From positions 6,362-41,117 of the IMG/VR virus record IMGVR_UViG_3300037847_005930: DNA of 34,756 nucleotides, one strand, 5' to 3'. The translations under genes were made by a program, and so were the position numbers. Positions 2,632-34,171 of the stretch are shown here, piece after piece. Origin of the DNA: a virus. How positions within the stretch are numbered: the first letter of the stretch is position 1; each line of letters starts with the position of its first letter. Under the pieces are notes generated by a model. That model did not search any database, was not told the origin of the DNA, and worked only from the letters and a program-made list of their open reading frames with translations.

Positions 2632-3560
2632 ACACCTAATAACTTATACTCCATTAACTTTCTTAGTGAAAGTAATTCAGTATTTTCTATCTTTTTATAA
2701 ATTTTTTCAAAACCTAATTCGGATGGGTCTGAATCTCCTAATTCAACAATATAAACATCTACACCGTTGTTCATTAATACTTCAGCAAATCTAAGTGAAT
2801 TACTAAATGCATCTGAATCTAATGCTAAATACACTTTCTTTACACCCTTCCCTAATATTTTCTTTTGTAGTTCCGATTGTGGTGATTTTCCAAATAGTGG
2901 AATACTATTCATTCGAATCGCCATAGCATCAAAAACTCCCTCACATATTACAATTGGCAAATCCCAATTGATTAACATTTCAAACCCAACAACATCTTTT
3001 GATACGTTTGGATTTTTATGTTTAAAATTACTTTCATAAAAACTTCTACCTACAAAATAATTTAAAATACCATTTTCATCATACGATGGAATTATTACTT
3101 TATGTTTATATGGGCCCTCTTCACAATACCCAATCTGATATTTAATTATCTCAGCTGGTTTTACTCCCCTTTCATCCAAATAACCCAATGCGTGTTTTCT
3201 AATTACCGATGTAGATGATTTCCAAAGTGGAATATATTCTTTTGGAAGTTGTACAACTTTACTTTCCTCTACAACCGTATCTGTTCTGTATCTATATTTT
3301 CTACTGAATATAGAATTATGTTCATCCCATATTTCTTTTGATACTTTTAGTTTTCTAAATAAAGTACGAATTGATTTACCTTTTTCATCAGAAATCCAAC
3401 AATGCCAAGGGTTATCACCATTAGAGTTTAACTTTATGTTTATCTCTAATTTAGGTTTATAGTGATTCACAAATGGAGAGAAAAAGGCGTAGTTATCCCC
3501 ACTTGTTTTCTTAGACTTTCCTAAGACGGTTTCTAGTAATGATAAGAGTCTTTCTTCCAT
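2628..3560 (-). CDS. DnaG-type primase-like TOPRIM protein (T4 gp61-like)
   Basis: A 310-residue protein with a TOPRIM domain at about residues 205-265: the acidic motif VICEGVFDA and the downstream DxD in ALDSDAF, which in DnaG-type primases bind metal for RNA primer synthesis. The N-terminus has the layout of a primase zinc domain (FFSPFVNHYKPKL, then NPWHCWISDEKGKS) but keeps only one cysteine (C54), so a normal CHC2 zinc site seems to be lost. I chose the ATG at 3560 (MEERLL); the ATG at 3578 would add six residues encoded inside a promoter-like element. It lies 30 bases after the endonuclease I gene and overlaps the Mre11-Rad50 start by four bases, a replication/recombination neighbourhood. 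Primase is the best call; another TOPRIM protein is possible. No helicase domain is attached. Confidence 0.8.
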   Translation of the reverse strand: MEERLLSLLETVLGKSKKTSGDNYAFFSPFVNHYKPKLEINIKLNSNGDNPWHCWISDEKGKSIRTLFRKLKVSKEIWDEHNSIFSRKYRYRTDTVVEESKVVQLPKEYIPLWKSSTSVIRKHALGYLDERGVKPAEIIKYQIGYCEEGPYKHKVIIPSYDENGILNYFVGRSFYESNFKHKNPNVSKDVVGFEMLINWDLPIVICEGVFDAMAIRMNSIPLFGKSPQSELQKKILGKGVKKVYLALDSDAFSNSLRFAEVLMNNGVDVYIVELGDSDPSELGFEKIYKKIENTELLSLRKLMEYKLLGV

Positions 3561-3567
3561 ATTAGAG

Positions 3568-3599
3568 TAAATATACAAAAAATATTTGAATTATCCAAA
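3568..3599 (-). promoter_or_regulatory. Candidate Bacteroidetes-type promoter before the primase gene
   Basis: On the minus strand the -33 TTTG (3599-3596) is followed by exactly 20 bases and TATATTTA (3575-3568), against the consensus TAnnTTTG. The spacing equals that of the other promoters in this window. It overlaps the 3' end of the endonuclease I gene and lies only 7 bases before the primase ATG at 3560, so the transcript would be almost leaderless. That, and the last-base mismatch, make it weaker than the others. Confidence 0.45.
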
Positions 3600-4016
3600 A
3601 AATTTCTTAGTTGGTTTTTCATCTATCCATTCTTGTGGGATTTCCTTCTTTGCCCATTTGAATCCGTTCTTTTCACACCATTGAGCATATGTGGTTTTAG
3701 AACCTTTGTATATTTTTCCATTTGGAGATTGTAATACGAATCGTAAATCCATATCAGGATTTTGTTCTTTGATTAATAAATGTTTTTTTCTATCTTCTGG
3801 TAAGAACCACCCTTTTGATTCTATAAAGATTCCATTTGGTAGTTTAAAATCAGGTTTGTAAGTGTGATGAGTTGCTGGTATTGTATATTCTACTTCATGC
3901 TTTTCATACTCACCATCGATACCTTTTGATTTGAGTTGTTCATCTATACGAGTTTCCAACCCACTTTTATGTCCCTTCATCTTTTGAATGTGAGACCAGT
4001 TTCCTTTTGTATTCAT
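3591..4016 (-). CDS. Endonuclease I (T7 gp3-like Holliday junction resolvase)
   Basis: A 141-residue protein matching the phage T7 endonuclease I family in length and catalytic residues. Visible are SGLE (E21), YKPDF (D56) and FIESKG (E66, K68), equivalent in order and spacing to E20, D55, E65 and K67 of T7 gp3. The family is a dimeric PD-(D/E)XK nuclease that cleaves four-way junctions and branched DNA, clearing recombination intermediates before packaging. T4 uses gp49 (endonuclease VII) for this job, so a T7-type enzyme here would be a functional substitute. It sits at the junction between the tail genes and the primase/Mre11-Rad50 genes. It starts 15 bases after the 695-residue structural gene ends. 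Confidence 0.9.
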   Translation of the reverse strand: MNTKGNWSHIQKMKGHKSGLETRIDEQLKSKGIDGEYEKHEVEYTIPATHHTYKPDFKLPNGIFIESKGWFLPEDRKKHLLIKEQNPDMDLRFVLQSPNGKIYKGSKTTYAQWCEKNGFKWAKKEIPQEWIDEKPTKKFFG

Positions 4017-6154: not shown

Positions 6155-7255
6155 TTAAAAATCTAACTTAACCTTAACTAACACTTCATTTGAGAATGAT
6201 TTAAGAATTGGTTTAGATAACTTAGCAACGGCCAATAATTGTTGTGAACTATTGTATAATCCAACAGTTGTAATATACGATTTAGGATTGTTAGCAAATG
6301 TTGGTTGTCTAAACGCTCCATTTGAACCTGATGTATATGATGGGTTGTTTGAGAAGTTATACTCACCATTCTTAGCTCTTACAAAATAGAATGTTGATTG
6401 TACTCTTTCTTCGTTTCTTGCGGCAAAACCATAATTTGAATTAATAACTGCAGCTCCACTAATAGATGTAAATAGTTTAAATGCGTTATCACCATTAAGG
6501 TTTGAACCAGTAACAGTACCAAAGTTAACATTAGTGTTTAATGTATCGGCGTTAAGTACTATAACACCTTGTTCAGGATAAACCTGTCCATAATAAGTTT
6601 TAGGTGAATAAACACCATTTAAAATAGAACCTGATACTAAGTTGTAAACTCTACCTATTTGAGTAGCTGCTTGTTGTGTATCACCACTATCATCAATTAA
6701 CTGAATAACTTCATTAGAACCAGAAATACTTATATTAGAACCTGTGTGTACGTTGTTTGGTACAACTGAACCTGAACCAACTCCATTTCCTGCTAACTTA
6801 GCTAAACCTAATTCGAAGTTACCAGGGTCTAATCTATCTTTTAATCTAGCTCTGTTAAGGTTAACTGCGTAAATGTGTTGAGAAGCAACATCATTAAAAC
6901 TGAACACTCTCTGATTGTCTGGTAGTAGGATTTGTGCATATTGAGAATAGATAGCGTTAGAAGGTGAATCTTCATTCTGTCCTAATGAACCACTACCTGC
7001 GTTGTGTCCGTATGTTACTGAAAACTGAGATTCAGATGTTGAATCAGTTGATACACCGTTAAAAATCTCATAATAATATTGTTTCTGAGTAGCTGATTGT
7101 GCAGAAGATGTATGGAATGTAGTTAGTGTTCCTACGTTACCACTCCATAAACCTCTGGTCACTTTTTCTACACCACCCTCTACAACATCTCCTACTTTGA
7201 ATGCCGTATATACTCTCTTTGATGTATTAAACGAACCTGCTGGTAAAATTGCCAT
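6155..7255 (-). CDS. Virion structural protein sharing C-terminal domain with neighbour
   Basis: A 366-residue protein, rich in Ser, Asn, Gly and Val and predicted to be mostly beta. Its last 80 residues (GEYNFSNNPSY, ITTVGLYNSSQQLLAVAKL, VLVKVKLDF) match in order and spacing the C-terminal domain of the 695-residue protein downstream. The N-terminus (MAILPAGSFNTSKRVYTAFK) has no signal peptide. The start is preceded by AAAAGGGAATAAGAT, one of the few purine-rich leaders here. It lies between two other structural genes in the same orientation. It is probably a tail or baseplate-associated component; function is otherwise unknown. Confidence 0.7.
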   Translation of the reverse strand: MAILPAGSFNTSKRVYTAFKVGDVVEGGVEKVTRGLWSGNVGTLTTFHTSSAQSATQKQYYYEIFNGVSTDSTSESQFSVTYGHNAGSGSLGQNEDSPSNAIYSQYAQILLPDNQRVFSFNDVASQHIYAVNLNRARLKDRLDPGNFELGLAKLAGNGVGSGSVVPNNVHTGSNISISGSNEVIQLIDDSGDTQQAATQIGRVYNLVSGSILNGVYSPKTYYGQVYPEQGVIVLNADTLNTNVNFGTVTGSNLNGDNAFKLFTSISGAAVINSNYGFAARNEERVQSTFYFVRAKNGEYNFSNNPSYTSGSNGAFRQPTFANNPKSYITTVGLYNSSQQLLAVAKLSKPILKSFSNEVLVKVKLDF

Positions 7256-24204: not shown

Positions 24205-24235
24205 CTATTATAACTTTTTTTTAGTTAAACTTAAT

Positions 24236-24267
24236 CAAATATACAACATTTTTTTTGAAATACCAAG
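24236..24267 (-). promoter_or_regulatory. Bacteroidetes-type promoter for clpP-groES-HD
   Basis: On the minus strand CTTG (24267-24264), exactly 20 bases, then TATATTTG (24243-24236): a full match to the Bacteroidetes -7 consensus TAnnTTTG with a -33 TTG. It ends 31 bases before the clpP ATG. Unlike four other promoters in this window it lacks the upstream TTAACA element. Confidence 0.8.
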
Positions 24268-24271
24268 TATT

Positions 24272-25417
24272 TTAATAAGTTTTTATATCATCCTCATCAG
24301 TAGTATCTTTTGATTCAGATTGAAAGTTTCTTAAATCTACACCATCAGAATAAGGTTTTGAAAATTCATTATATATTTGTTCGTTTTGTTCTTCAACATC
24401 AACAGGCTTTTCATCGTAAACTTCTACGTTACCATACACATCTTCTACTTCATACTTTGGTGTAGCAAGAATCTCTTCGTTCTTCTTAATCATTTCTTCT
24501 TGAGAAAGTTTATCTTTCACTTTCTTATGTTTCTCACCATTCATCATTGTATGTTTGTACATCATTTTATTTCTTTGTGTGAAATAATCATCCTCTTCTT
24601 CTCTTCTACCAATATATTTGTTTACTGCGATTACCATAGCGATTGCCATTGGGTCGAATACGAATACAATCATTAGAGTGAACCAATTCACAATTACATC
24701 CATCGGTCTACCTGTAATCTTAGCCATATATCTAAGTGGGCCAATCTCTGCCGCTACTTCGTTGTTGGATTCTAAATCCAAAATCTGTAAATCTAATTTT
24801 GTAATAGAATCGGTAACTGCTTCCATCTTAATCGAAACACTATTTCGTTGTTCCTTCATATCATCTAACTGAGCGTTTAAAACTCTACGAGTAGATGATG
24901 AGGTTGTAGTGATGATTTCACCAGTCTCTCTATCTTTGTATTGGATGGTATTATTTGATAATCCTTTTGTAAGTTCTGATATAGATTCACTAAGTTGAGC
25001 TCTTTCTACTTTGTATCCTTCCAACGATTCAGAGAATCTATCTCTTTTCATTTCAACCACAGCAACTTGTTTATCTACGATAGTTAATTGGTCGGCAGTA
25101 GTTTGATATGCTGATGTAAGGAATCCATAGATACCTGCTGAGGTTATAATCATTAAGATACCCACACCCAATGTAAGATATGATTTTAACATCCATCCTA
25201 ATTTCTTCCAATGGTTATGTAGATATGATGCTACGATTAATTTAGCTAACTCTAATGCTGAAGCCATTATGATTACTTCAAACCTTGCTCCAGCAAACAA
25301 AGAACTCAGTCCAAATACTGAATAATATGCAGCAGTTCCAGCTAAAGATAATGTTGAAAACACCATCAAAAACCCAAATCCTACCTTTTTTGAAAAAAAG
25401 TTTTTAACAATATCCAT
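24272..25417 (-). CDS. Membrane protein with periplasmic or cytoplasmic coiled coil
   Basis: A 381-residue protein with about four hydrophobic helices: 13-35, 45-66, 77-102 and 247-272 (NWFTLMIVFVFDPMAIAMVI). Between helices 3 and 4 lies a long coiled coil (about 105-235) broken by a short Thr/Ser-rich loop (TGEIITTTSSSTRR). The last 110 residues are acidic and charged, probably cytoplasmic (EEEDDYFTQRNKMMYKHTMM and QEEMIKKNEEIL). The fold recalls conserved marine T4-like phage membrane proteins of unknown function. No holin, spanin or channel signature is decisive. It is followed 31 bases downstream by the clpP promoter region and preceded by a 157-base gap holding a hairpin. Confidence 0.75.
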   Translation of the reverse strand: MDIVKNFFSKKVGFGFLMVFSTLSLAGTAAYYSVFGLSSLFAGARFEVIIMASALELAKLIVASYLHNHWKKLGWMLKSYLTLGVGILMIITSAGIYGFLTSAYQTTADQLTIVDKQVAVVEMKRDRFSESLEGYKVERAQLSESISELTKGLSNNTIQYKDRETGEIITTTSSSTRRVLNAQLDDMKEQRNSVSIKMEAVTDSITKLDLQILDLESNNEVAAEIGPLRYMAKITGRPMDVIVNWFTLMIVFVFDPMAIAMVIAVNKYIGRREEEDDYFTQRNKMMYKHTMMNGEKHKKVKDKLSQEEMIKKNEEILATPKYEVEDVYGNVEVYDEKPVDVEEQNEQIYNEFSKPYSDGVDLRNFQSESKDTTDEDDIKTY

Positions 25418-25574: not shown

Positions 25575-26474
25575 CTACTGAAGGTAATCTAAAATAGCAA
25601 GTTCTTTAGCTTTAGATTCTACCATAATATCAACATCTAAACCATATGTATTAGGAATCTCATTGATATAATCTGAGTGTGCTTGAGGTTTCAGTTTCTC
25701 ATTATTCTCATGTAAAGCTTTAGATTCTGAATAGTGAACTACAGGTGTAATTCCATCAGGCCAAGTAGATACTGCTAACTTCAATGCTTCTTCCTCTGAT
25801 AAATCTCCAGTACAAAATTTGTGGTGGTGATAATCGAATACAATAGGAATACCAATACGTTCATGTATGTACATCAAATCTTTTACTGAATACATAGATG
25901 CCTTATCATCGTTCTCTACAGTAAGACGAGTTTGAACTGATTCAGGTAAACGTTCAAAGTTTTTACAGAATCTATCCATAGCAGATTGTTTATCACCATA
26001 CACACCGTTACAATGAATATTAAGTTTGTTGTAAGGTGTACGAGATAATCCCAACATATCAAACACCTCACCATGTATAGAAAGGTCTGTAATGGTGTTC
26101 TGTACTACTCTTTCGTTTGGAGATACCAACACATTGAATGGGCCAGGATGTGATGTAATACGTTGATTATACTTTTTGATAAGATTACCAGCACCTGCCA
26201 TAAGATTAGATATACGATGGTAATGAGGTAACTCTGATAAGTTGTACTCACTAGCCCAAGGGAACAACTCAGAACTCAACCTAAAGAAGTTGATACCATT
26301 CTGATGATTCCATTTGATAATCTCAATAAGGTCTCTGGTGTTTTGAATAGCCAACTCTGAAGCGTATGGAATACCTTTCTCTGTGAAGGTACGTTTTATC
26401 ATACTACGGTTGGTTGTGATTTTGGGTTTCTGTTTACCCAATGTCATATTGATACAGGCATATCCTAAATTCAT
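25575..26474 (-). CDS. uvsE: UV damage endonuclease UvdE/UvsE
   Basis: A 299-residue protein of full family length with its TIM-barrel metal-site motifs in order: MNLGYACINMTLG, FFRLSSELFPWASEY, SHPGPFNVL, HGEVFDMLG, HCNGVYGDK, RLTVENDDKASMYS, VFDYHHHKFCTGD, VVHYSESKA, QAHSDYI and VDIMVESKAKELA. The enzyme nicks DNA 5' to cyclobutane dimers, 6-4 photoproducts and other lesions, starting excision repair. T4 uses the unrelated DenV glycosylase for UV dimers, so UvdE is a functional alternative suited to sunlit water. It is transcribed from the promoter at 26498-26554 and is followed by a candidate terminator, so it is probably a single-gene unit. Confidence 0.96.
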   Translation of the reverse strand: MNLGYACINMTLGKQKPKITTNRSMIKRTFTEKGIPYASELAIQNTRDLIEIIKWNHQNGINFFRLSSELFPWASEYNLSELPHYHRISNLMAGAGNLIKKYNQRITSHPGPFNVLVSPNERVVQNTITDLSIHGEVFDMLGLSRTPYNKLNIHCNGVYGDKQSAMDRFCKNFERLPESVQTRLTVENDDKASMYSVKDLMYIHERIGIPIVFDYHHHKFCTGDLSEEEALKLAVSTWPDGITPVVHYSESKALHENNEKLKPQAHSDYINEIPNTYGLDVDIMVESKAKELAILDYLQ

Positions 26475-26497: not shown

Positions 26498-26554
26498 CTA
26501 ATATACAAAAAAATAGGGGACTATACAAGCCCCCTATGTTAAGAAATTGTTAAA
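26498..26554 (-). promoter_or_regulatory. Promoter with upstream TTAACA element, for uvdE
   Basis: Minus strand: element TTTAACAATTTCTTAACAT (26554-26536), 7 bases, TTG (-33, 26528-26526), then TATATTAG (-7, 26505-26498); the spacer from CTTG to the -7 box is 20 bases. The same layout occurs before three other genes. The upstream element overlaps the stop codon of the preceding 61-residue gene. The -7 box ends 23 bases before the uvdE ATG. Confidence 0.85.
26507..26536 (-). terminator. Rho-independent terminator overlapping the uvdE promoter
   Basis: Minus strand TAGGGG (26536-26531), an 11-base loop, CCCCTA (26519-26514), then seven T. It ends the hsp20/61-residue gene transcript. The -33 TTG of the uvdE promoter lies in the loop and the T tract lies in the -33/-7 spacer, so terminator and promoter share the same bases. 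Confidence 0.8.
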
Positions 26555-26735
26555 TATCTTCCCACTCTACATCCGTAACTTCTTGACAAAAATAATAGTA
26601 AGGTTCTTTTTTAAATACTTTATCAGAACGTAAGTGTTCTTTCCAAGTAGATATAATAGGCATATGGTCTATTCGTATCTTCCTTTGAACTATCCATAGA
26701 GTGTTATTTACATTAACAACTTCTCTATTGAACAT
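26550..26735 (-). CDS. Small hypothetical protein after hsp20
   Basis: A 61-residue protein (VNVNNTLWIVQRKIRIDHMP, FKKEPYYYFCQEVTDVEWED) with no membrane segment or known motif. Its ATG overlaps the hsp20 stop as TAATG, so translation is probably coupled. It is the last gene before the terminator/promoter at 26507-26554. The function is not recognised. Confidence 0.6.
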   Translation of the reverse strand: MFNREVVNVNNTLWIVQRKIRIDHMPIISTWKEHLRSDKVFKKEPYYYFCQEVTDVEWEDI

Positions 26736-27070
26736 TATTTAACGGATACTTCAATTACTTTAGTCTTTTTTTCTTCTACCTTTGGAATCGATATAGTTAA
26801 TACACCATCCTTTACAACAGCAGTTGTTTTAGATACATCCCAATCTTCTTGAATGTTGTATCTTTTATTGAATGTTCTTTTTTCATTATCACCTTCAATA
26901 GAAAGAACTGTATCTTCTACTTTTACATTGATATCTTTTTTCGATAAGCCAGGTACATCAAACTCCATAGTGAGTACATCATCTTCGATTCTCATATTAC
27001 GAGTTTCTCTTTGAGGATGGTTAAACACTTCATCCATTAAGTTCCATGCGTTATTCATTGTTAAAATCAT
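26735..27070 (-). CDS. hsp20: Small heat-shock protein Hsp20 (alpha-crystallin family)
   Basis: A 111-residue protein with an alpha-crystallin domain: MRIEDDVLTMEFDVPGLSKK, DINVKVEDTVLSIEGDNE, KRYNIQEDWDVSKTTAVVKD, the family GVLTISIPK, and a C-terminal KVIEVSVK. The short N-terminus (MNNAWNLMDEVFNHPQ) suits a small phage version; the usual C-terminal IXI tail is essentially absent. It holds unfolding proteins as an ATP-independent chaperone. Hsp20 genes are common in marine T4-like phages. ATGs at 27070 and 27058 are both possible; the first follows AAAGGGAAAAA. The 120-base upstream gap carries direct and inverted repeats, which may regulate it. Confidence 0.92.
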   Translation of the reverse strand: MILTMNNAWNLMDEVFNHPQRETRNMRIEDDVLTMEFDVPGLSKKDINVKVEDTVLSIEGDNEKRTFNKRYNIQEDWDVSKTTAVVKDGVLTISIPKVEEKKTKVIEVSVK

Positions 27071-27120
27071 TTTTTCCCTTTTTAGTTTTAGTTAAACAAT
27101 TAATTTATATGATTGTTATA

Positions 27121-27202
27121 GTACCAATTATGTACCAAAGGATTTTTTAAGACTGTTTGTCAGTATTTCTTATTTGTGTATGACAAAATGTCAGTTAACT
27201 GA
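27121..27202. promoter_or_regulatory. Repeat-rich region upstream of hsp20
   Basis: The gap between hsp20 and the upstream gene contains two GTACCAA copies 11 bp apart (27121-27127, 27132-27138), a hairpin TGACA-AAA-TGTCA (27181-27193) and the 12-bp palindrome TCAGTTAACTGA (27191-27202), which overlaps the stop of the upstream gene. On the minus strand CTGACA occurs twice, 31 bases apart. No TTG-N20-TAnnTTxG promoter was found here. A regulator binding site is a guess. Confidence 0.4.
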
Positions 27203-27640
27203 AAATGGTGGAGTGTTTCCAATAATATCAAAGGTTAAAATTACTTGCCAAGGTTCGTACTTAGTGAATTCAACTTTACGATTCATTAAAATCATACCAT
27301 TCATTTGTAAATCATTGGCCACTTTCACTAATAAATCTAATGTGGGCCCGTAGATATTAATAATATCTCTATCATCACCTTTTACAAATTCGATTTTAAC
27401 TTCGTTTCTATCTCTTTCGAAATCATAGTTATCATCTACTTCACCTTCTAATTCTTCTGCGGCTTTCATTAAACGAGCTAACTCTCTTTCTTCCGCATCT
27501 AAACGTTCCATTTCTTCGTGAATAGGTAGATAGGCGAACTCACCAATCATCAAATCGTATAAGTACAATAACTTATCTTCATCTTCCAATGTTTCAAAGA
27601 ACTTGAATTCATTTTCATCCCAATATTCTACGGTAGCCAT
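27191..27640 (-). CDS. Acidic hypothetical protein
   Basis: I choose the ATG at 27640 (149 residues, MATVEYWDENEFKFFETLED) because GGGAG lies 6 bases upstream; the ATG at 27646 would overlap the preceding stop as ATGA, and a still earlier ATG at 27682 would overlap the neighbour by 40 bases. The protein is rich in Asp and Glu, helical in the middle (EEMERLDAEERELARLMKAA) and beta-like at the end (VKIEFVKGDDRDIINIYG, KYEPWQVILTFDIIG). The acidic character could suggest a DNA-mimic or inhibitor, but no family is recognised. It belongs to the small-gene cluster upstream of hsp20. Confidence 0.6.
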   Translation of the reverse strand: MATVEYWDENEFKFFETLEDEDKLLYLYDLMIGEFAYLPIHEEMERLDAEERELARLMKAAEELEGEVDDNYDFERDRNEVKIEFVKGDDRDIINIYGPTLDLLVKVANDLQMNGMILMNRKVEFTKYEPWQVILTFDIIGNTPPFSVN

Positions 27641-27642
27641 AC

Positions 27643-27828
27643 TCATCTCCCAAAGTCTTTTATAATTTCTTTTGTTAACCAAGATGGTTCTGATGTAAAG
27701 TGTTTGAAATAAGGTTCACTAATTAAATACAGTTTTAGTTTTTGATATTTTTTTTCATCACTATCATTGGTTGATAGTATATTAATTATCTTTTCTCTGT
27801 ACGGTTCTTCTATGTAGTTTAAACTCAT
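27643..27828 (-). CDS. Small hypothetical protein
   Basis: A 61-residue protein (MSLNYIEEPYREKIINILST, KLYLISEPYFKHFTSEPSWL) that is helical and rich in Tyr and Lys, with no known motif. It ends in the same bases where the acidic 149-residue protein may begin, so the pair is likely co-translated. The upstream leader is A/T-rich (AATATTTATAATTGAG). The function is not recognised. Confidence 0.55.
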   Translation of the reverse strand: MSLNYIEEPYREKIINILSTNDSDEKKYQKLKLYLISEPYFKHFTSEPSWLTKEIIKDFGR

Positions 27829-27849
27829 CTCAATTATAAATATTGGGGA

Positions 27850-28257
27850 TTATAACTTTCCCTTATAGATTTGGTTCATAAAGATTAAACAATCTTTAGA
27901 TAATGCTTTGTTTTCTTTTTGTACTGTATCAATACAAACGGCTAAAAATTTTACTATATGTGGTGGTGGGTTTTTTTCACCAATCTGTAGAATCCTATCT
28001 TGAAGTTTATGGATGTACTCATCTGTAATAAAGATATCTTCTAATAGATACTTTTCTTTCATATATCTTTCAGAGAACCATTGATGTGGTTTAGCATCTT
28101 TATCTACGGCGTGTTTATAAACCGTATTAACATACTCATCTAATTTAAGTACATCTGGTACGGATGATGCAAACTTTTTATAACTAACCCATTCACGAGC
28201 TTGTTGTAAATCATCATCACCTAAACCTAATTCTTTAAAAAAATCCTTCGGATTCAT
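27850..28257 (-). CDS. Helical hypothetical protein
   Basis: A 135-residue, mostly alpha-helical protein (MNPKDFFKELGLGDDDLQQA, KHAVDKDAKPHQWFSERYMK, IVKFLAVCIDTVQKENKAL). No membrane segment, nucleotide-binding or nuclease motif is visible. It lies 10 bases after the 97-residue gene at 28268 and 21 bases before the 61-residue gene, in a run of small minus-strand genes typical of phage early or host-takeover regions. The function is unknown. Confidence 0.6.
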   Translation of the reverse strand: MNPKDFFKELGLGDDDLQQAREWVSYKKFASSVPDVLKLDEYVNTVYKHAVDKDAKPHQWFSERYMKEKYLLEDIFITDEYIHKLQDRILQIGEKNPPPHIVKFLAVCIDTVQKENKALSKDCLIFMNQIYKGKL

Positions 28258-28267
28258 TCAGTTGTTT

Positions 28268-28561
28268 TTATTGAAACAACCCTAATTGAATTTTTCTTTT
28301 GTGTGAATTCTGTGCATCCATTAATGTAGTAAATACTTTATTACATTCGGACCAAGTTAAATCCACTCTTTGATTACCTACGATTAAAGTTCCAATTGGT
28401 TGACTTCTATCTTTATAATTTCCTTCAGTAATTCTATCACTTAATTCGAAATCAATTGAGTTGTAATTCTTACCTAATTTTTTTAATTTATCTCTATCTT
28501 TTTGATGAGTTGCCCCACCTAAGTTTACTCTACCTCTCGGCTTTCCTGAATATCTTTTCAT
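28268..28561 (-). CDS. Small basic hypothetical protein
   Basis: A 97-residue basic protein: N-terminal Gly/Arg/Lys-rich stretch (MKRYSGKPRGRVNLGGATHQ, KDRDKLKKLGKNYN), then a folded-looking part (TLIVGNQRVDLTWSECNKVF) and the end KRKIQLGLFQ. Nucleic-acid contact is possible from the charge, but no family is recognised. A 66-base gap separates it from the upstream gene; no consensus promoter was found there. Confidence 0.6.
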   Translation of the reverse strand: MKRYSGKPRGRVNLGGATHQKDRDKLKKLGKNYNSIDFELSDRITEGNYKDRSQPIGTLIVGNQRVDLTWSECNKVFTTLMDAQNSHKRKIQLGLFQ

Positions 28562-28627
28562 TTGAAGTGTATTTTAATTGTTTAACTATTTGTTAATAAA
28601 TATAAAATAAACTTTAATGAAACTATA

Positions 28628-28921
28628 TTACCTACGATTTCTTTTAGATAATCTAGCAAACTTAGCTTCAAACGATTTTAAATCCATTCTATTAGGGTGA
28701 GTTCTTTCTATGTTTTGATTTACTCTCATAGTTTCCGCCATCCAAAACCAAGCCGCGGCTACAGTCTTTTGTGGTGGTATCATATACTCATCTAATAGAA
28801 CATTACCTGTTCCATCTGATACAAAGAACTTTCCATCGGATGTTCGTTGTGTACTTGCTTTAGGGAACTTTCTTAAAACCTTTCTTTTTAACCTTTTAAA
28901 TTTATTTTTATCAATTTCCAT
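28628..28921 (-). CDS. Small basic hypothetical protein
   Basis: A 97-residue basic protein with a Lys/Arg-rich N-terminus (KNKFKRLKRKVLRKFPKAST), a central beta-like part (SDGKFFVSDGTGNVLLDEYM), then AAAWFWMAETMRVNQNIERT and a basic end (FARLSKRNRR). It overlaps the upstream 75-residue gene by 11 bases, which suggests coupled translation. Basic ends suggest nucleic-acid binding; this is inference. No family is recognised. Confidence 0.6.
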   Translation of the reverse strand: MEIDKNKFKRLKRKVLRKFPKASTQRTSDGKFFVSDGTGNVLLDEYMIPPQKTVAAAWFWMAETMRVNQNIERTHPNRMDLKSFEAKFARLSKRNRR

Positions 28922-29138
28922 TTTCTAAGTGTTTATTAAACGACCTTGTTAATCGGCTATCTATAAATGATGTTACACTATTATCATCCACATATAGTTC
29001 TTCAACTATTCTACCATCTTCAGTTGTAACAGTATAGCGATAACCCTTTACTGTTTTTTGTCTTTCTGTTATTTGGCCAACTTTATTCTTACCAAATACT
29101 GATACGATTACTGTTTCATTTGTACTATAGGATATCAT
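28911..29138 (-). CDS. Small beta-rich hypothetical protein
   Basis: A 75-residue protein with a short SH3-like strand pattern (ETVIVSVFGKNKVGQITERQ, YRYTVTTEDGRIVEELYVDD) and the end SRLTRSFNKHLENGN. No catalytic residues are visible. It lies 4 bases after the DUF4494-like gene and overlaps the next gene by 11 bases. The function is unknown. Confidence 0.55.
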   Translation of the reverse strand: MISYSTNETVIVSVFGKNKVGQITERQKTVKGYRYTVTTEDGRIVEELYVDDNSVTSFIDSRLTRSFNKHLENGN

Positions 29139-29142
29139 ATAT

Positions 29143-29343
29143 TTATTTTATAACCTTAATAATTTTGGTTTCTATTACAGAACCAACTTCAAACTCTACA
29201 GAATCATTTTTAAATTCTTCGTGAACTTTAGTTTCTGCATCGGTTACTGATACTGCGTGAACCAAATACTGTTCGATATTCTTTTTTTGTCTACCCTTAT
29301 CATCGGTAGAGATTACTTTTACTTTTGCGATATAATACTTCAT
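29143..29343 (-). CDS. DUF4494-like small protein
   Basis: A 66-residue protein whose pattern (KYYIAKVKVISTDDKGRQKK, IEQYLVHAVSVTDAETKVHE, VEFEVGSVIETKII) matches my memory of DUF4494: an N-terminal strand, a YLVdAlSfteAE motif and a final pair of strands. That family is found mainly in Bacteroidetes and their phages, and its function is unknown. The match is from pattern recognition only. It supports the host inference. Its start follows AAAAATACAATT, an A/T-rich leader without Shine-Dalgarno. Confidence 0.6.
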   Translation of the reverse strand: MKYYIAKVKVISTDDKGRQKKNIEQYLVHAVSVTDAETKVHEEFKNDSVEFEVGSVIETKIIKVIK

Positions 29344-29353
29344 AATTGTATTT

Positions 29354-29815
29354 TTAGTTATTAAAATTAATGTTATACTTTTCTGATAATTCGGTTTCTG
29401 TAATCAGTGCATATTCACCATTACATTCACCATGTGTTAAATCCTCTACAATAGTATGAAACCATTGAACTGATTTTTCACCATCGTGTTGTCTACCCGC
29501 TGGTATCACCATCAGTTGCATTGGTACTACTTTGTTTTGGAATGATTTCCATTGACGAGGTCCAATCTCATCTGGTCCCTTTTGGAATCGTTCTCTCAAA
29601 TGTTCGTAGAAATCATTATCCATTTCTTCCCACTCATCATAGTTGAGATATTCTTCTTGTGCTTCTTCTTGTGCTTTGTGAAGAGCTTCTTTTTCTGATT
29701 CCGATAACTCATCCCAAAAATCTGTAGGGATTGGGTTTTCAGAATCTACATTAGGATGTTTATAAACAGAATCTTTTACTTGTCGTAGTTCATCCATAGT
29801 TCTTTTTTTAGCCAT
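29354..29815 (-). CDS. Acidic hypothetical protein
   Basis: A 153-residue acidic protein: helical N-terminal half rich in Glu (SEKEALHKAQEEAQEEYLNY, DEWEEMDNDFYEHLRERFQK), then RQWKSFQNKVVPMQLMVIPA and a C-terminal part with His and Cys (WFHTIVEDLTHGECNGEYAL). No clear metal-site or enzyme motif can be assigned. It overlaps the upstream 103-residue gene by 8 bases. The function is unknown. Confidence 0.6.
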   Translation of the reverse strand: MAKKRTMDELRQVKDSVYKHPNVDSENPIPTDFWDELSESEKEALHKAQEEAQEEYLNYDEWEEMDNDFYEHLRERFQKGPDEIGPRQWKSFQNKVVPMQLMVIPAGRQHDGEKSVQWFHTIVEDLTHGECNGEYALITETELSEKYNINFNN

Positions 29816-30119
29816 TTGTTAATTGTTTACTTAATACAAAACCTGTTTCACCTTTATCATTGGTTACTTCTTCTACCAAACCCTTATCTATCAATCCATC
29901 AATTGTAGTATCTACATTCTCTTGTATAATACTTTTAGCTACTGTTTCAGCCAGATTAAATAGTGTTTCCATATCTTTACCTAAATCATCTGTAAAATTA
30001 ATTTTAGATGCAGAGTTGATAAAGCGAGGTCTAAATTTGTTTTCATCAATCCACTCATTATTGAAGAATCCATCTTCACTAAGAGTTTCAAGAATGATTT
30101 TTACGATATCTTTTTTCAT
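29808..30119 (-). CDS. Small hypothetical protein, first gene of the small-gene operon
   Basis: A 103-residue protein: MKKDIVKIILETLSEDGFFN, then LGKDMETLFNLAETVAKSII, and a final part resembling a short winged-helix-like tail (TIDGLIDKGLVEEVTNDKGE, TGFVLSKQ). That end, with a helix then a GLVE/GFVLS hairpin, is reminiscent of small DNA-binding regulators, but it is only suggestive. It is the first gene after the consensus promoter at 30138-30169 and probably heads the operon running down to hsp20. Confidence 0.6.
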   Translation of the reverse strand: MKKDIVKIILETLSEDGFFNNEWIDENKFRPRFINSASKINFTDDLGKDMETLFNLAETVAKSIIQENVDTTIDGLIDKGLVEEVTNDKGETGFVLSKQLTNG

Positions 30120-30137
30120 TTTAATATAATTTTTTAT

Positions 30138-30169
30138 CTAATATACAAAATTATTTCTTAACTTCCAAA
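30138..30169 (-). promoter_or_regulatory. Bacteroidetes-type promoter for the small-gene operon
   Basis: Minus strand TTTG (30169-30166), exactly 20 bases, then TATATTAG (30145-30138), 18 bases before the ATG at 30119. The -33 box lies in the T-rich tail of the terminator just upstream. It has no TTAACA upstream element; the terminator stem occupies that position. Confidence 0.8.
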
Positions 30170-30196
30170 TAAACCCCCCACTATTTTAGTGGGAGG
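30166..30196 (-). terminator. Terminator after the AAA+ ATPase gene
   Basis: Minus strand CCTCCCACT, a short A-rich loop, AGTGGGGGG, then TTTATTTG: a strong GC-rich hairpin (nine positions with one mismatch) with a short U-rich tail, located 26 bases after the stop of the ATPase gene at 30222. Confidence 0.75.
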
Positions 30197-30221
30197 TCAT
30201 TTGATGAGTAATAATTAATAA

Positions 30222-31505
30222 TTAAAATGGGTTCGATAAATCAACATCATCTGAAGTTTCATCTTCTACATTGAAGAGATTTTCTTCTTCAGTAGAACCA
30301 ACAAACTTTTGAACGAATTGTTTGATGAAAGTTCTTTCAGATTGTGCTCCACCCGCATCATCGAACAATGGGTAGATAGTAATTTCAGCGGCCTCAGCCA
30401 GATTGAATCCATCATAAAGTAGTGAACCAATCTCAACAGCCGTTCTAGTCGATAGTGAGTTTGAAAGAGTAGGAACTTCTTTCTTTACATCACTTCTAGT
30501 CATCGAAGTAATCTTAGCAACATTGTTAAGAACAGTTTCATCAACCGATGGGTACATCATTTGAAGTAGTGATGTTTCTTCATCAACATTCAAAGTATCC
30601 ATTTCGATGATTGTGAACCTGTCAACAATCGCTCTATCCAACTGTCTAGTCGATGTGTACTCATTACCGATGTTAGCGGAAGCGATGAACGAAACACCAT
30701 CAGCAACTTTCACTACTGGTGAATCAGCGGCTTCATCCAACCTCAAGTATCTTTGACCGGCATCCAACACAGTCATTAGGATGTTGTGAGCCTCAGGATG
30801 TGCTCTGGAGATTTCATCCAATACGATTACAGTATTTGGAGTTTGGATAGCCTTCACAAAAGGTGATGGTGAGAACACCGTACCCTTCTTAGTATCGAAC
30901 TGAGTATTTCCGATTAGAGTGGCTCTTGGGTCTTGTGTAGAACCTAAGTTGAAGATTTCCATAGAGTAACCATCAATGGAATTAGCGGCGGCTTTAGCGG
31001 CCATAGTTTTACCACAACCAGCCGGACCAGTCATCATAATATTTTTACCTCTCAGAATGTTTCTGATTAGGTACTTCCACTTTAGTGGATTCATAAACAA
31101 CATCTGTGGTTTCAAACCATCAGCTTCGGTATGAATAAACTTTAGGAAATCTTCTTCCATTGGTTTTTCAGCAACTTCCATAGTTGGTTTTTGTTTCATT
31201 TGATATTGTTCCAAACCACCATTAGGTTTGTTAAAGTTAGTTACAGGTTCAGAACCATTGAACTTCTCACCAGGTACTCTGTTGAACTCAACAGAACCAT
31301 TGGTAAGATTACCTTTGATTCTTGCTTTGATACAATACTTAGTTGGATTGTTACAAGCAGATACACACCTCTTATAAAGTGATGAACCTTTTTCATTTAT
31401 TTGGGGAACGAAGAATTCCACTCCCGCTGAATCTGTAAGGATGATTTCCTTACTTTCGTTTCTCTTCGCTTGAAGGAAAACTGCTCTTTGTGATTTGTTA
31501 CTCAT
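30222..31505 (-). CDS. MoxR/CobS-like AAA+ ATPase
   Basis: A 427-residue protein. Residues about 145-390 form a MoxR-type AAA+ module: Walker A GPAGCGKT (160-167), Walker B VIVLDE (226-231), sensor 1 FIASANIGNEYTST, an arginine-finger region QLDRAIVDRF, and a helical lid. The N-terminal 110 residues are a separate domain with three Cys (RCVSACNNPTKYC) and no known family; the C-terminus is acidic (EEENLFNVEDETSDDVDLSN). MoxR proteins act with VWA proteins as chaperone-like remodelling machines; CobS/CobT insert cobalt into the corrin ring. The partner VWA gene lies directly upstream (31612-33774). CobS-like genes are common in marine T4-like phages, but true cobalamin synthesis is unlikely here. 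It has its own promoter and a terminator after it. Confidence 0.88.
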   Translation of the reverse strand: MSNKSQRAVFLQAKRNESKEIILTDSAGVEFFVPQINEKGSSLYKRCVSACNNPTKYCIKARIKGNLTNGSVEFNRVPGEKFNGSEPVTNFNKPNGGLEQYQMKQKPTMEVAEKPMEEDFLKFIHTEADGLKPQMLFMNPLKWKYLIRNILRGKNIMMTGPAGCGKTMAAKAAANSIDGYSMEIFNLGSTQDPRATLIGNTQFDTKKGTVFSPSPFVKAIQTPNTVIVLDEISRAHPEAHNILMTVLDAGQRYLRLDEAADSPVVKVADGVSFIASANIGNEYTSTRQLDRAIVDRFTIIEMDTLNVDEETSLLQMMYPSVDETVLNNVAKITSMTRSDVKKEVPTLSNSLSTRTAVEIGSLLYDGFNLAEAAEITIYPLFDDAGGAQSERTFIKQFVQKFVGSTEEENLFNVEDETSDDVDLSNPF

Positions 31506-31551
31506 AAATTTTAAATTTTAATTATTAATACTCTTAACTCTTATTACTCTA

Positions 31552-31608
31552 CTAAAGTACGACTTTTATTTTGATTTTCCAAATTTCTAATGTTAAGAAA
31601 TTGTTAAA
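31552..31608 (-). promoter_or_regulatory. Promoter with upstream TTAACA element, for the AAA+ ATPase
   Basis: Minus strand: TTTAACAATTTCTTAACAT (31608-31590), 7 bases, TTG (-33, 31582-31580), 20 bases, TACTTTAG (-7, 31559-31552). It lies between the VWA stop (31612) and the ATPase ATG (31505), 46 bases before it. Confidence 0.85.
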
Positions 31609-31611
31609 TCT

Positions 31612-33774
31612 TTATTGAAACAATTTGTTCAATGTTTTAGTCAACGCCATCAGATTCGTACAATCTACTGATGTTGCTGATTTACCATACATTCTTTTGA
31701 AGTTATCGATACCACCTTCGTAACCATCATACACAAAGTATGAAAGAACCTTAACTCCCGCTTGTTGGATTTTCTTAACCTGAGAGGCGGTGTGTTCAAC
31801 CGCGGCGTTTCCACCATAATCGATATCTCTGTTAGAGAAACCTGGCCACCCATCTGAGAAGTTGATGAAGTAAGAATCAACACCTTTGTTAGTTTTGATG
31901 ATGTCATCTAAAACAGTTTCAAAACATAAACCTTCAGGAGTAGTTCCACAAGGATTAAGATATTTGAACAATTGTTGAATCTTAGAGAACTTATCTTTTC
32001 TACTATCGTATGCAATCAACATAAGTGGTTGTGTATTCCCATCATGTTGAATACTTCTGTAAGATATAACCACATCTAAGTTAGAAGTCATTGAAGCGGC
32101 CTTAGCGATAGCAACTGCCGATGTTTGAGTTTGTTTCCACTTTGAACCACCCATTGATGAACTAGCATCGATAGAGATGTGAACCAAAGCGGGATTGTGT
32201 TTGTTAATTGAAATCTGGTCAAAGATTTGAACATTACCCATTCCCAATTCATGTAACAATCTACCGGCGATTTTACCATTCTTCATTCTTGGAGTAACCA
32301 AACTTCTTTCCTCATTTCTAAGTTTAAGTTTCTTACCTAATACAGTACCCAAAATAATACCTTTGTTAATTGCTTCAGAGTTTCTATCAACACTCCAAGA
32401 GTAAGTAGATAACATACTAATCATACCAGAATCGGCTAATTGTTTAGTGTAGTTTTTCACAAGCATTACAGGAGTTTGTTTACTGTTTCTGTAGTAACTT
32501 GGATTGTGATAATCTTTACCAGCCAACTTTTCTTCAACACCACTCTTATCTAAAGTTTCCATCTTCTTAGATTCAGTTTTGGAAACTTTCTTCTTTTGAA
32601 TATCACCATTCTGAAACTTCTTTTGTTTCTCAATAGCGTTATCCAATTGTTTCTTTTGTCTATCTGATAACTTACCGTTACCTTCAGAACAATGTGTTTT
32701 TTCATCGGTGATTTGAGAATCAGAACCACTACCACCAGCACCATTAGGATTGTAAGAACCTCTACTTCCACTCTTTACATCATCACCTTCTGCATCACCT
32801 TTGGAATCATCAGTACCGTTAGAACCATCTTTTGATTCACCACCATTACCTTCGGTATTATCAGTACCATTGGTTTCAGAGTTATCTCCACCACCACCGT
32901 TACCACTACCTTCAGATTGTTCATCACTATCACCTTCACCATCACACTCACCATCATTCTTTTGGTTAGGTGATTGAATTGGTTTTTCTGATGGTGGGAG
33001 TGAATTCTCAATTACTTTGAAAATCTGTGAAGCCAACACCAACGAACCATTGGTATCTTTTATCATATCGATGTTTTTCAAATCCATCAGATTCCATACA
33101 CTTCTCAACATTGGAAGAGCATCTAAATCTCTATTCTTATTAGTGATGTTGATGATTCTAAACATATAAGATTCCCAATCGTTATCTCTATACTCAGAGG
33201 ATTGTAATCCCTTATCAACTATCTTAGAGTTGAAGTACTTATCGTACATAGCGTGGTAGTAACCTTTGTAACCAGGTGATGTACTATAAATGTAGTAATC
33301 GATTCTCCTATCTTCGATTACATTCAACAAATCTTTTACAACTTTTGAAACCCAATTTTGACAGTCCCACTCAGTCATATTGTGTTTATCCATCAGATGA
33401 GTAATGTAATCTTTACCAACAACCAATCCGATGTTGTTGTTGATTGTATCTAATGTATTGAAATCGGTTAACTTAATGTGAGAACCTTCGTGCAGTGCCA
33501 ACCCAACAGTTGAATCAAAATCTTTATCATCCATCTTAGATGAAATCACAACCGATTTACCATCGGTATAAGAATCACCCCTTACACTAAAGGTGACTGG
33601 AATATGTTCACCAGTAACAATATCAACGAAGTTACCGATTGATTTCTTATAAGAGGCAAGAGCCATAAGGTTATTGTGTTTAGATTCTATAGGATTCAAA
33701 TCCAAAGAATCATCATCATCGAACAACCCATCTCTCAACCAATAAGAACTGTATTTTGTGTTATCTCTATTCAT
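31612..33774 (-). CDS. CobT/VWA-like protein with HEXXH motif, partner of the AAA+ ATPase
   Basis: A 720-residue protein in three parts. The N-terminal region (about 1-260) holds an HEXXH motif, HEGSH at 95-99, in a helix (TVGLALHEGSHIKLTDF), as in the putative metallopeptidase domains that accompany some VWA proteins. Residues about 260-365 are a low-complexity acidic Gly/Ser/Asp/Glu/Asn linker. The C-terminal third (about 530-720) is a VWA domain with a complete MIDAS: DASSS (D536, S538, S540), a Thr in NPCGTTPEG and an Asp in FINFSDGWPG. This matches the CobT/MoxR-associated VWA layout. It is probably the substrate-binding partner of the ATPase encoded just downstream. Protease activity is inferred only from HEXXH; the third zinc ligand is not identified. 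Confidence 0.85.
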   Translation of the reverse strand: MNRDNTKYSSYWLRDGLFDDDDSLDLNPIESKHNNLMALASYKKSIGNFVDIVTGEHIPVTFSVRGDSYTDGKSVVISSKMDDKDFDSTVGLALHEGSHIKLTDFNTLDTINNNIGLVVGKDYITHLMDKHNMTEWDCQNWVSKVVKDLLNVIEDRRIDYYIYSTSPGYKGYYHAMYDKYFNSKIVDKGLQSSEYRDNDWESYMFRIINITNKNRDLDALPMLRSVWNLMDLKNIDMIKDTNGSLVLASQIFKVIENSLPPSEKPIQSPNQKNDGECDGEGDSDEQSEGSGNGGGGDNSETNGTDNTEGNGGESKDGSNGTDDSKGDAEGDDVKSGSRGSYNPNGAGGSGSDSQITDEKTHCSEGNGKLSDRQKKQLDNAIEKQKKFQNGDIQKKKVSKTESKKMETLDKSGVEEKLAGKDYHNPSYYRNSKQTPVMLVKNYTKQLADSGMISMLSTYSWSVDRNSEAINKGIILGTVLGKKLKLRNEERSLVTPRMKNGKIAGRLLHELGMGNVQIFDQISINKHNPALVHISIDASSSMGGSKWKQTQTSAVAIAKAASMTSNLDVVISYRSIQHDGNTQPLMLIAYDSRKDKFSKIQQLFKYLNPCGTTPEGLCFETVLDDIIKTNKGVDSYFINFSDGWPGFSNRDIDYGGNAAVEHTASQVKKIQQAGVKVLSYFVYDGYEGGIDNFKRMYGKSATSVDCTNLMALTKTLNKLFQ

Positions 33775-33807
33775 ATATTATAATTATCATTTCTTAATCT
33801 TACACTA

Positions 33808-33864
33808 CTAAAGTAGTGATTTTTTTGCAATTATCCAAGTATTAAATGTTAAATTTTTGTTAAA
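33808..33864 (-). promoter_or_regulatory. Promoter with upstream TTAACA element, for the VWA gene
   Basis: Minus strand: TTTAACAAAAATTTAACAT (33864-33846), 7 bases, TTG (-33, 33838-33836), 20 bases, TACTTTAG (-7, 33815-33808). The -7 box lies in a perfect 6-bp dyad CACTAC-TTTA-GTAGTG (33818-33803). It ends 33 bases before the VWA ATG at 33774. Confidence 0.85.
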
Positions 33865-33886
33865 GTTATTAACAAGTTATTAACAA
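33843..33886 (-). repeat. Four tandem 11-bp units upstream of the VWA promoter
   Basis: Read on the minus strand: TTGTTAATAAC (33886-33876) twice in a row, then TTTAACAAAAA and TTTAACATTTA. The first two are identical. The period of 11 bp is close to one DNA turn, so TTAA/TTAACA boxes lie on one face of the helix. The last two units are the upstream element of the promoter. Confidence 0.8.
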
Positions 33887-33887
33887 T

Positions 33888-34085
33888 TTAAAGTAACCCT
33901 TTTAGTAGTTTCTTATAATCTATCGATAGTAAACCCATTCCGCCTAACATTAGACCCATAACAGAGAATACTATTTCATTAAGAACATCTTCAAACTGAA
34001 TAAGGTTCTGAATCGTTCCGTTCATAGTAAGATAGGAAGCTCCCAACCCTACTATCGTTAATAAAATTGCTTGGTAATTTTTCAT
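33888..34085 (-). CDS. Small two-helix membrane protein
   Basis: I choose the ATG at 34085 (65 residues, MKNYQAILLTIVGLGASYLT) because the upstream ATG at 34103 would leave only 11 bases after the -7 box, less than the 18-46 seen for the other well-supported promoters. Two hydrophobic segments (about 6-24 and 36-54, EIVFSVMGLMLGGMGLLSID) are joined by a short polar loop, and the end is basic (YKKLLKGLL). The size and two-helix shape would suit a holin or other small inner-membrane protein, but no lysis gene lies nearby. It has its own promoter with the TTAACA element. The function is unknown. Confidence 0.65.
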   Translation of the reverse strand: MKNYQAILLTIVGLGASYLTMNGTIQNLIQFEDVLNEIVFSVMGLMLGGMGLLSIDYKKLLKGLL

Positions 34086-34114
34086 ATTGTATATCTTTAT
34101 CAATTATTACAGTA

Positions 34115-34171
34115 CTAAAGTACGAAAAATATTTGATATATACAAGCCGCCAATGTTAAGAAATTGTTAAA
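34115..34171 (-). promoter_or_regulatory. Promoter with upstream TTAACA element, for the small membrane protein
   Basis: Minus strand: TTTAACAATTTCTTAACAT (34171-34153), 7 bases, TTG (-33, 34145-34143), 20 bases, TACTTTAG (-7, 34122-34115). The -7 box lies in the dyad GTAC-TTTA-GTAC (34123-34112). It lies between the thyA stop (34178) and the membrane-protein start. Confidence 0.85.

Follow-up and report, generated by a model that had tools for sequence, protein, structure and literature searches.

A probable host Pho box on the promoters of Bacteroidota phages

Introduction

Which protein reads a direct repeat that stands at the same distance from four promoters of a phage? This question is raised by a stretch of viral DNA of 34,756 nucleotides (the window; positions 6,362 to 41,117 of IMG/VR record IMGVR_UViG_3300037847_005930). 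A reading of its sequence alone had described four minus-strand promoters sharing one 19-base element, and had proposed either an UP element for the RNA polymerase alpha subunit or the site of a phage activator or repressor. The possibility of a host regulator was not considered at that stage. The window phage is a Bacteroidota phage, and its element has been compared here with related phages and with the promoters of Bacteroidota hosts.

Four promoters of one design

The motif TTTAACA-N5-TTAACAT-N7-TTG is present as four exact minus-strand sites (26526-26554, 31580-31608, 33836-33864 and 34143-34171). With up to three mismatches allowed, the window still contains only these four sites, each with 0 mismatches, as against a mean of 0.99 in shuffled sequences. 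The 20-nt spacer and the TA(C/T)(T/A)TTAG -7 boxes are found at all four sites, as had been read from the sequence. Three copies of the 19-base element are indeed identical (TTTAACAATTTCTTAACAT), the fourth one, in the promoter of the VWA-like gene, having AAAAT as its N5. The sites are thus real, but the four gene contexts, which had been called unrelated, are not independent because a segment of 4 kb contains three of them.

All features described below are on the minus strand. The repeat before the UV-endonuclease gene uvdE (25575..26474; Pfam PF03851, E 9.6e-68) is an exact match at 26536..26554. It is followed by a core promoter at 26498..26528, with the -33 TTG at 26526-26528, the 20-nt spacer and the -7 box TATATTAG at 26498-26505; this promoter scores 25.3 bits with a promoter position weight matrix (PWM). 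A box is also found upstream of uvdE in related phages. An Hsp20 small heat-shock protein is encoded by the phage at 26735-27070. The gene of the AAA (MoxR-type) ATPase (30222..31505; Pfam AAA_5, E 5.3e-18) lies behind an exact repeat at 31590..31608 and a core promoter at 31552..31582 (TTG 31580-31582, -7 box TACTTTAG 31552-31559; PWM 32.3 bits). The next repeat, also exact, is at 33846..33864, with a core promoter at 33808..33838 (TTG 33836-33838, TACTTTAG 33808-33815; PWM 31.3 bits). It serves an open reading frame of 720 amino acids (31612..33774) that had been named VWA. A DxSxS-type motif, DASSSM, can be recognized by eye in this protein but a Pfam search gave no match, hence the term VWA-like only. 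The fourth exact repeat, at 34153..34171, and its core promoter at 34115..34145 (TTG 34143-34145, TACTTTAG 34115-34122; PWM 36.9 bits) precede the gene of a small hydrophobic protein of 71 amino acids (33888..34103), the small membrane protein.

Two additional features are seen close to these promoters. A GTAA is conserved in most viral sites (34107-34114, 33800-33807 and 31544-31551 in the window). It is located shortly 3' of the -7 box, at or close to the position where transcription is expected to start, and is followed by purines; it would be an initial transcribed sequence under conservation. At 33865-33886, immediately upstream of the box of the VWA-like promoter, TTGTTAATAAC is present as a tandem pair with an 11-bp period. 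In viral loci this 11-mer is mostly located 15, 24-26 or 36-37 nt before the core-promoter TTG, a phasing of about 11 bp, and several of the promoters that lack a box in G029, a distant phage, are marked by it. It is perhaps the site of a second regulator, or the box read in the opposite orientation.

The element across phage genomes

A search of the whole parent record (G000, 53,099 bp), as the sequence-only reading had suggested, revealed six sites, the four of the window and two more, all on one strand, with 0 matches for the reversed-pattern controls. A scan of IMG/VR returned at least 120 stretches, and the element is present in dozens of phage contigs. Thirty-three element-bearing records were analysed further; since they had been selected for having the element, unbiased information comes only from the additional copies and the strand on which these lie. 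Nearly all of the additional copies share one strand. The highest number of elements, 27, was found in a record of 266 kb, and 0 matches to the reversed pattern were obtained across the 33 records.

The two direct repeats TTAACA-N5-TTAACA, with their 11-bp period, are found in all sites. Although it was not part of the viral search pattern, TAnnTT is positioned exactly 20 nt after TTG in 168 of the 191 de-duplicated viral sites. The core is thus of the Bacteroidota sigma-A type, TTG and a TAnnTTTG-like box lying about 20 nt apart. Other letters conserved among the 191 sites are an A-rich segment before the first repeat, a G after TTG and the GTAA after the -7 box. The sites are mostly 5-60 nt upstream of an open reading frame.

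The genes most often found behind the element in viral contigs are those of the VWA-like protein (17), the MoxR-type ATPase (17), UvdE (10) and the small membrane protein (10). A comparison of related phages, which had been proposed as a check, was run on the upstream regions of 56 distinct MoxR-type orthologues, picked through the protein and not through the motif: 31 of them carry the exact TTAACA-N5-TTAACA, and many of the others have one- or two-letter variants of it. No phosphate-uptake genes were found in the phages tested. In G001 the nine strict sites are all outside the structural regions. The distant phage lineage G029 has 11 elements, one box preceding a relative of the 71-amino-acid small membrane protein.

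The element is not a universal Bacteroidota phage promoter, which was ruled out by the T4-like Flavobacterium phage immuto. The T4-like window clade (G000, G001, G004, G008 and G009) has dozens of genes in common with immuto, where the element is absent even at two mismatches. In element-bearing genomes, roughly one strong core promoter in two lacks the element, and two promoter classes therefore coexist. In the window phage, the second class is that of the -33/-7 core promoters with no clear box (30130-30194, 24228-24292 and 3560-3624, minus strand). A separate observation concerns the baseplate protein of the Microcystis phage Mel-JY01 (PP395634.1), a phage recorded from a cyanobacterial host. 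This protein shows 52% identity to the window homologue over 99% of the latter, and is closer to it than that of the Flavobacterium phage. No exact element was found in the Mel-JY01 genome.

The same repeat before host phosphate genes

Host pstS genes were inspected because 11-bp direct repeats are a hallmark of PhoB-type regulators (PMC4415409). When the best match to TTAACA-N5-TTAACA was scored within 250 nt upstream of Flavobacteriales pstS genes, 16 of 21 reached at least 11/12 and seven of 21 the full 12/12, as compared to 0 of 30 gyrB genes and 1.2% of shuffled sequences at the 11/12 level. Only the N5 spacing is enriched (16/21, versus 0-4/21 for other spacings). High-scoring pstS genes of Bacteroidales behave likewise, all five readable ones scoring 11-12, and no box was found upstream of low-scoring PstS matches. 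Where a -7 box is present, the pstS repeats are mostly 20, 31 or 42 nt from it. Two of these promoters have TTTACA-N5-TTAATA at 31 nt, which is the phage distance, followed by TATGTTTG.

A genome-wide scan of 396 Flavobacteriales, in which no gene was named, looked for TTAACA-N5-TTAACA followed after 18-46 nt by TAnnTTTG. Matches were obtained in 143 of the 396 genomes, as against about 16 matches to the reversed pattern. Among the matches listed, 73 sites remained after near-duplicates had been removed by hand (family thinning). The gap to TAnnTTTG is exactly 20, 31 or 42 nt in 39 of these 73 sites and within 1 nt of these values in 61, a phasing with a binomial P of about 1e-20 when the remaining relatedness is ignored. 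The genes behind the sampled sites include those of PstS, PstC (TIGR02138), a Na/Pi cotransporter with a PhoU domain, DUF47/PhoU_div proteins, and porins of the Porin_O_P or BBP2 type. For each of these, a single representative was confirmed through Pfam or NCBIfam. The commonest phage 17-mer, TTAACAATTTCTTAACA, found in 56 of the 191 viral sites and three of the four window sites, is identical letter for letter in four host promoters of this Flavobacteriales set. The host gaps of 20, 31 or 42 nt and the phage gap, nearly always 31 nt, correspond to the same helix face. The sequence, the period and the helical phase of the phage element are thus identical to those of the element before host phosphate genes.

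The two layouts nevertheless differ in one respect: the phage promoters keep a full -33 TTG, which host promoters with the repeat rarely have. The strict pattern gave few and mixed host matches across 84,980 species (67 stretches, including HU-like genes of Prevotella and TetR genes). These initially spoke against a link with phosphate, which emerged only once the TTG was dropped.

Not every host site need be a Pho box, since some of those in phase are found before genes without a known function in phosphate metabolism, such as those of DUF1573 proteins, a MarR-type regulator and unnamed families. In the DUF1573 cases (Flavobacteriales loci L586, L592-L594 and L602) the TTAACA direct repeat is in phase, 41-42 nt from the -7 box. 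The commonest gene behind the host Pho-box-like sites (11 sites; L555, L557, L562, L565, L566, L569-L573 and L596) encodes a Flavobacteriales membrane protein of 380 amino acids, unmatched in Pfam, NCBIfam and PDB, which is a candidate new phosphate transporter. The HU-like DNA-binding protein gene, mostly in rumen Prevotella, also has TTAACA-N5-TTAACA upstream at the same distances, with several copies in some genomes (loci including L139, L150, L164, L173, L177, L190, L191 and L193).

Which regulator binds the repeat?

The proposal that the repeat is a functional element has been borne out. Both of the regulators initially put forward now look doubtful. An UP element contacted by the C-terminal domain of the host RNA polymerase alpha subunit would make these promoters strong and constitutive. 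The position of the A+T-rich box, about -59 to -41, and its 11-bp period would suit two alpha-CTD subsites. However, at the rRNA promoters of Flavobacteriales the TTG is preceded by A-tracts and not by TTAACA repeats, an observation on which this candidate was dropped. The host sites cluster before phosphate genes, and the conserved C and TpA step would rather suggest a base-specific reading. The pattern with TTG is also not enriched in 246 Flavobacteriales genomes (8 matches versus 7 in controls), which ruled out a common host promoter type and, together with the rRNA A-tracts, argues against the UP element; we regard the latter as scarcely credible.

An activator encoded by the phage itself would play a role similar to that of T4 MotA at middle promoters, an early protein binding the repeat to turn the whole class on. 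Such a scheme would fit with the density of the TTG-bearing layout in phages, as opposed to hosts, with the coexistence of boxed and box-less promoters, and with the lack of the element in the T4-like relative immuto. It is difficult to reconcile with a repeat, a period and a phase which are those of host phosphate-gene promoters. Moreover, no Trans_reg_C (PhoB-type DNA-binding) domain was detected in 18 element-bearing phage records; these phages therefore do not seem to carry a PhoB of their own. A profile search of the G001 families against G029 retrieved no recognizable regulator common to these distant lineages, although small or diverged proteins could be missed; the candidates in common are DNA polymerase, clamp loader, UvdE, a HAD-like phosphatase and small proteins. 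A phage activator or repressor is thus unlikely. Given the in-phase host sites before DUF1573, MarR-type and unnamed genes, the motif may also be shared by another host regulator of the OmpR family, whose half-site would resemble the Pho box. Phosphate uptake is nonetheless the best identified gene set behind the element, and the N5 enrichment is specific at pstS, so that we hold this variant to be very unlikely.

The phage element is, with high probability, a host Pho box, that is a PhoB site, and phosphate shortage would raise the expression of the boxed phage genes. This assignment comes from sequence comparison; PhoB is most likely the protein involved, acting as an activator, and phosphate shortage the signal. 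The two head-to-tail 11-bp half-sites would be the target of this response regulator of the OmpR/PhoB family. They precede the -7 box by 31 nt, and the promoter that bears them is in other respects a complete Bacteroidota -33/-7 promoter. Under phosphate shortage in the infected cell, PhoB in its phosphorylated form would occupy the box and assist the host RNA polymerase in starting at the phage promoters. The set of genes raised would be non-structural, with the VWA-like protein, the MoxR-type ATPase, UvdE, the small membrane protein and many small unknown genes, and the box-less promoters would remain independent of PhoB. Co-regulation of the genes served, as formerly proposed, is probable. 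Since host promoters rarely have the -33 TTG, the phage layout is not an exact host copy and may fire without PhoB. Some basal activity is likely, with PhoB maybe acting as a booster, because the phage keeps the TTG where hosts often have further repeats. The host of the window phage probably belongs to the bacteria carrying the same tag before phosphate-uptake genes.

Comparison with known systems

Bacteroidota promoters of the -33/-7 type (TTG ... TAnnTTTG) were reportedly described by Bayley et al. in 2000, a paper cited in PMC3547664. The phage promoters resemble them by their TTG, 20-nt spacer and TAnnTT(T/A)(G/A), and differ from the ordinary ones by the upstream direct repeat at a fixed distance and the GTAA just after the -7 box. 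In T4 middle promoters, the MotA box replaces the -35 element and MotA is phage-encoded. The promoters described here likewise form a phage class with its own activator site on a host-type core, but the -33 element is kept and the likely regulator is that of the host. A TTAACA-type half-site is also that of Bacillus subtilis PhoP. Pho boxes bound by PhoB or PhoP consist, in many bacteria, of two 11-nt direct repeats arranged head to tail ahead of the promoter (PMC4415409), as here; what differs is their location in phage genomes, on promoters retaining the -33 TTG. Among Bacteroidota, the pst promoter of B. fragilis is bound by PhoB of the same species (PMC3547664). F. johnsoniae, for its part, possesses a PhoBR operon, and its phosphate regulon is large (PMC8115612). 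We found neither a published consensus for the Bacteroidota Pho box nor a report of Pho boxes in Bacteroidota phages in the open-access literature.

Control of cyanophage genes by the host PhoBR system is already known. Host PhoB binds cyanophage promoters, as demonstrated for three promoters of Synechococcus phage S-PM2d, and several such genes rise under phosphorus depletion (PMC10976474). These genes, which include pstS of Prochlorococcus phage P-SSM2, offer the closest parallel, with phage promoters carrying boxes for a host regulator and with targets that include genes without an obvious phosphate role (PMC10976474). The host phylum and the box are different, the cyanophage box being PyTTAAPyPyT/A, and putative, variable boxes were found at 7 of 14 induced cyanophage genes; the authors of that study warn that predicting phage Pho boxes by sequence alone is unreliable (PMC10976474). 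The boxes described here are known from their sequence only; unlike in cyanophages, they are near-identical, as many as 27 occur in a genome, and they are set at a single fixed distance on complete -33/-7 promoters.

Biological implications

What is new here is probably a phage regulon that is wired to the host phosphate sensor and serves many targets through promoters of standard geometry. We consider it rather more probable than not, judging from the promoters compared, that several unrelated lytic Bacteroidota phage lineages have brought a large part of their non-structural promoters, as many as 27 in one genome, under the control of host PhoB. Phosphate shortage would then reprogram the infection, and the conserved targets would be the MoxR/VWA pair, UvdE and small unknown proteins rather than phosphate-uptake genes. 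If this is true, host phosphate control of phage genes would extend to another phylum, with many promoters per genome and one standard geometry, and the phage genes that are responsive to phosphate stress of the host could be predicted by a sequence rule. It would also place the Bacteroidota Pho box on a comparative footing and tie a widespread phage MoxR/VWA module to the nutrient state. The phage thus seems to read the phosphate-starvation alarm of its host, and to time some of its own genes by it.
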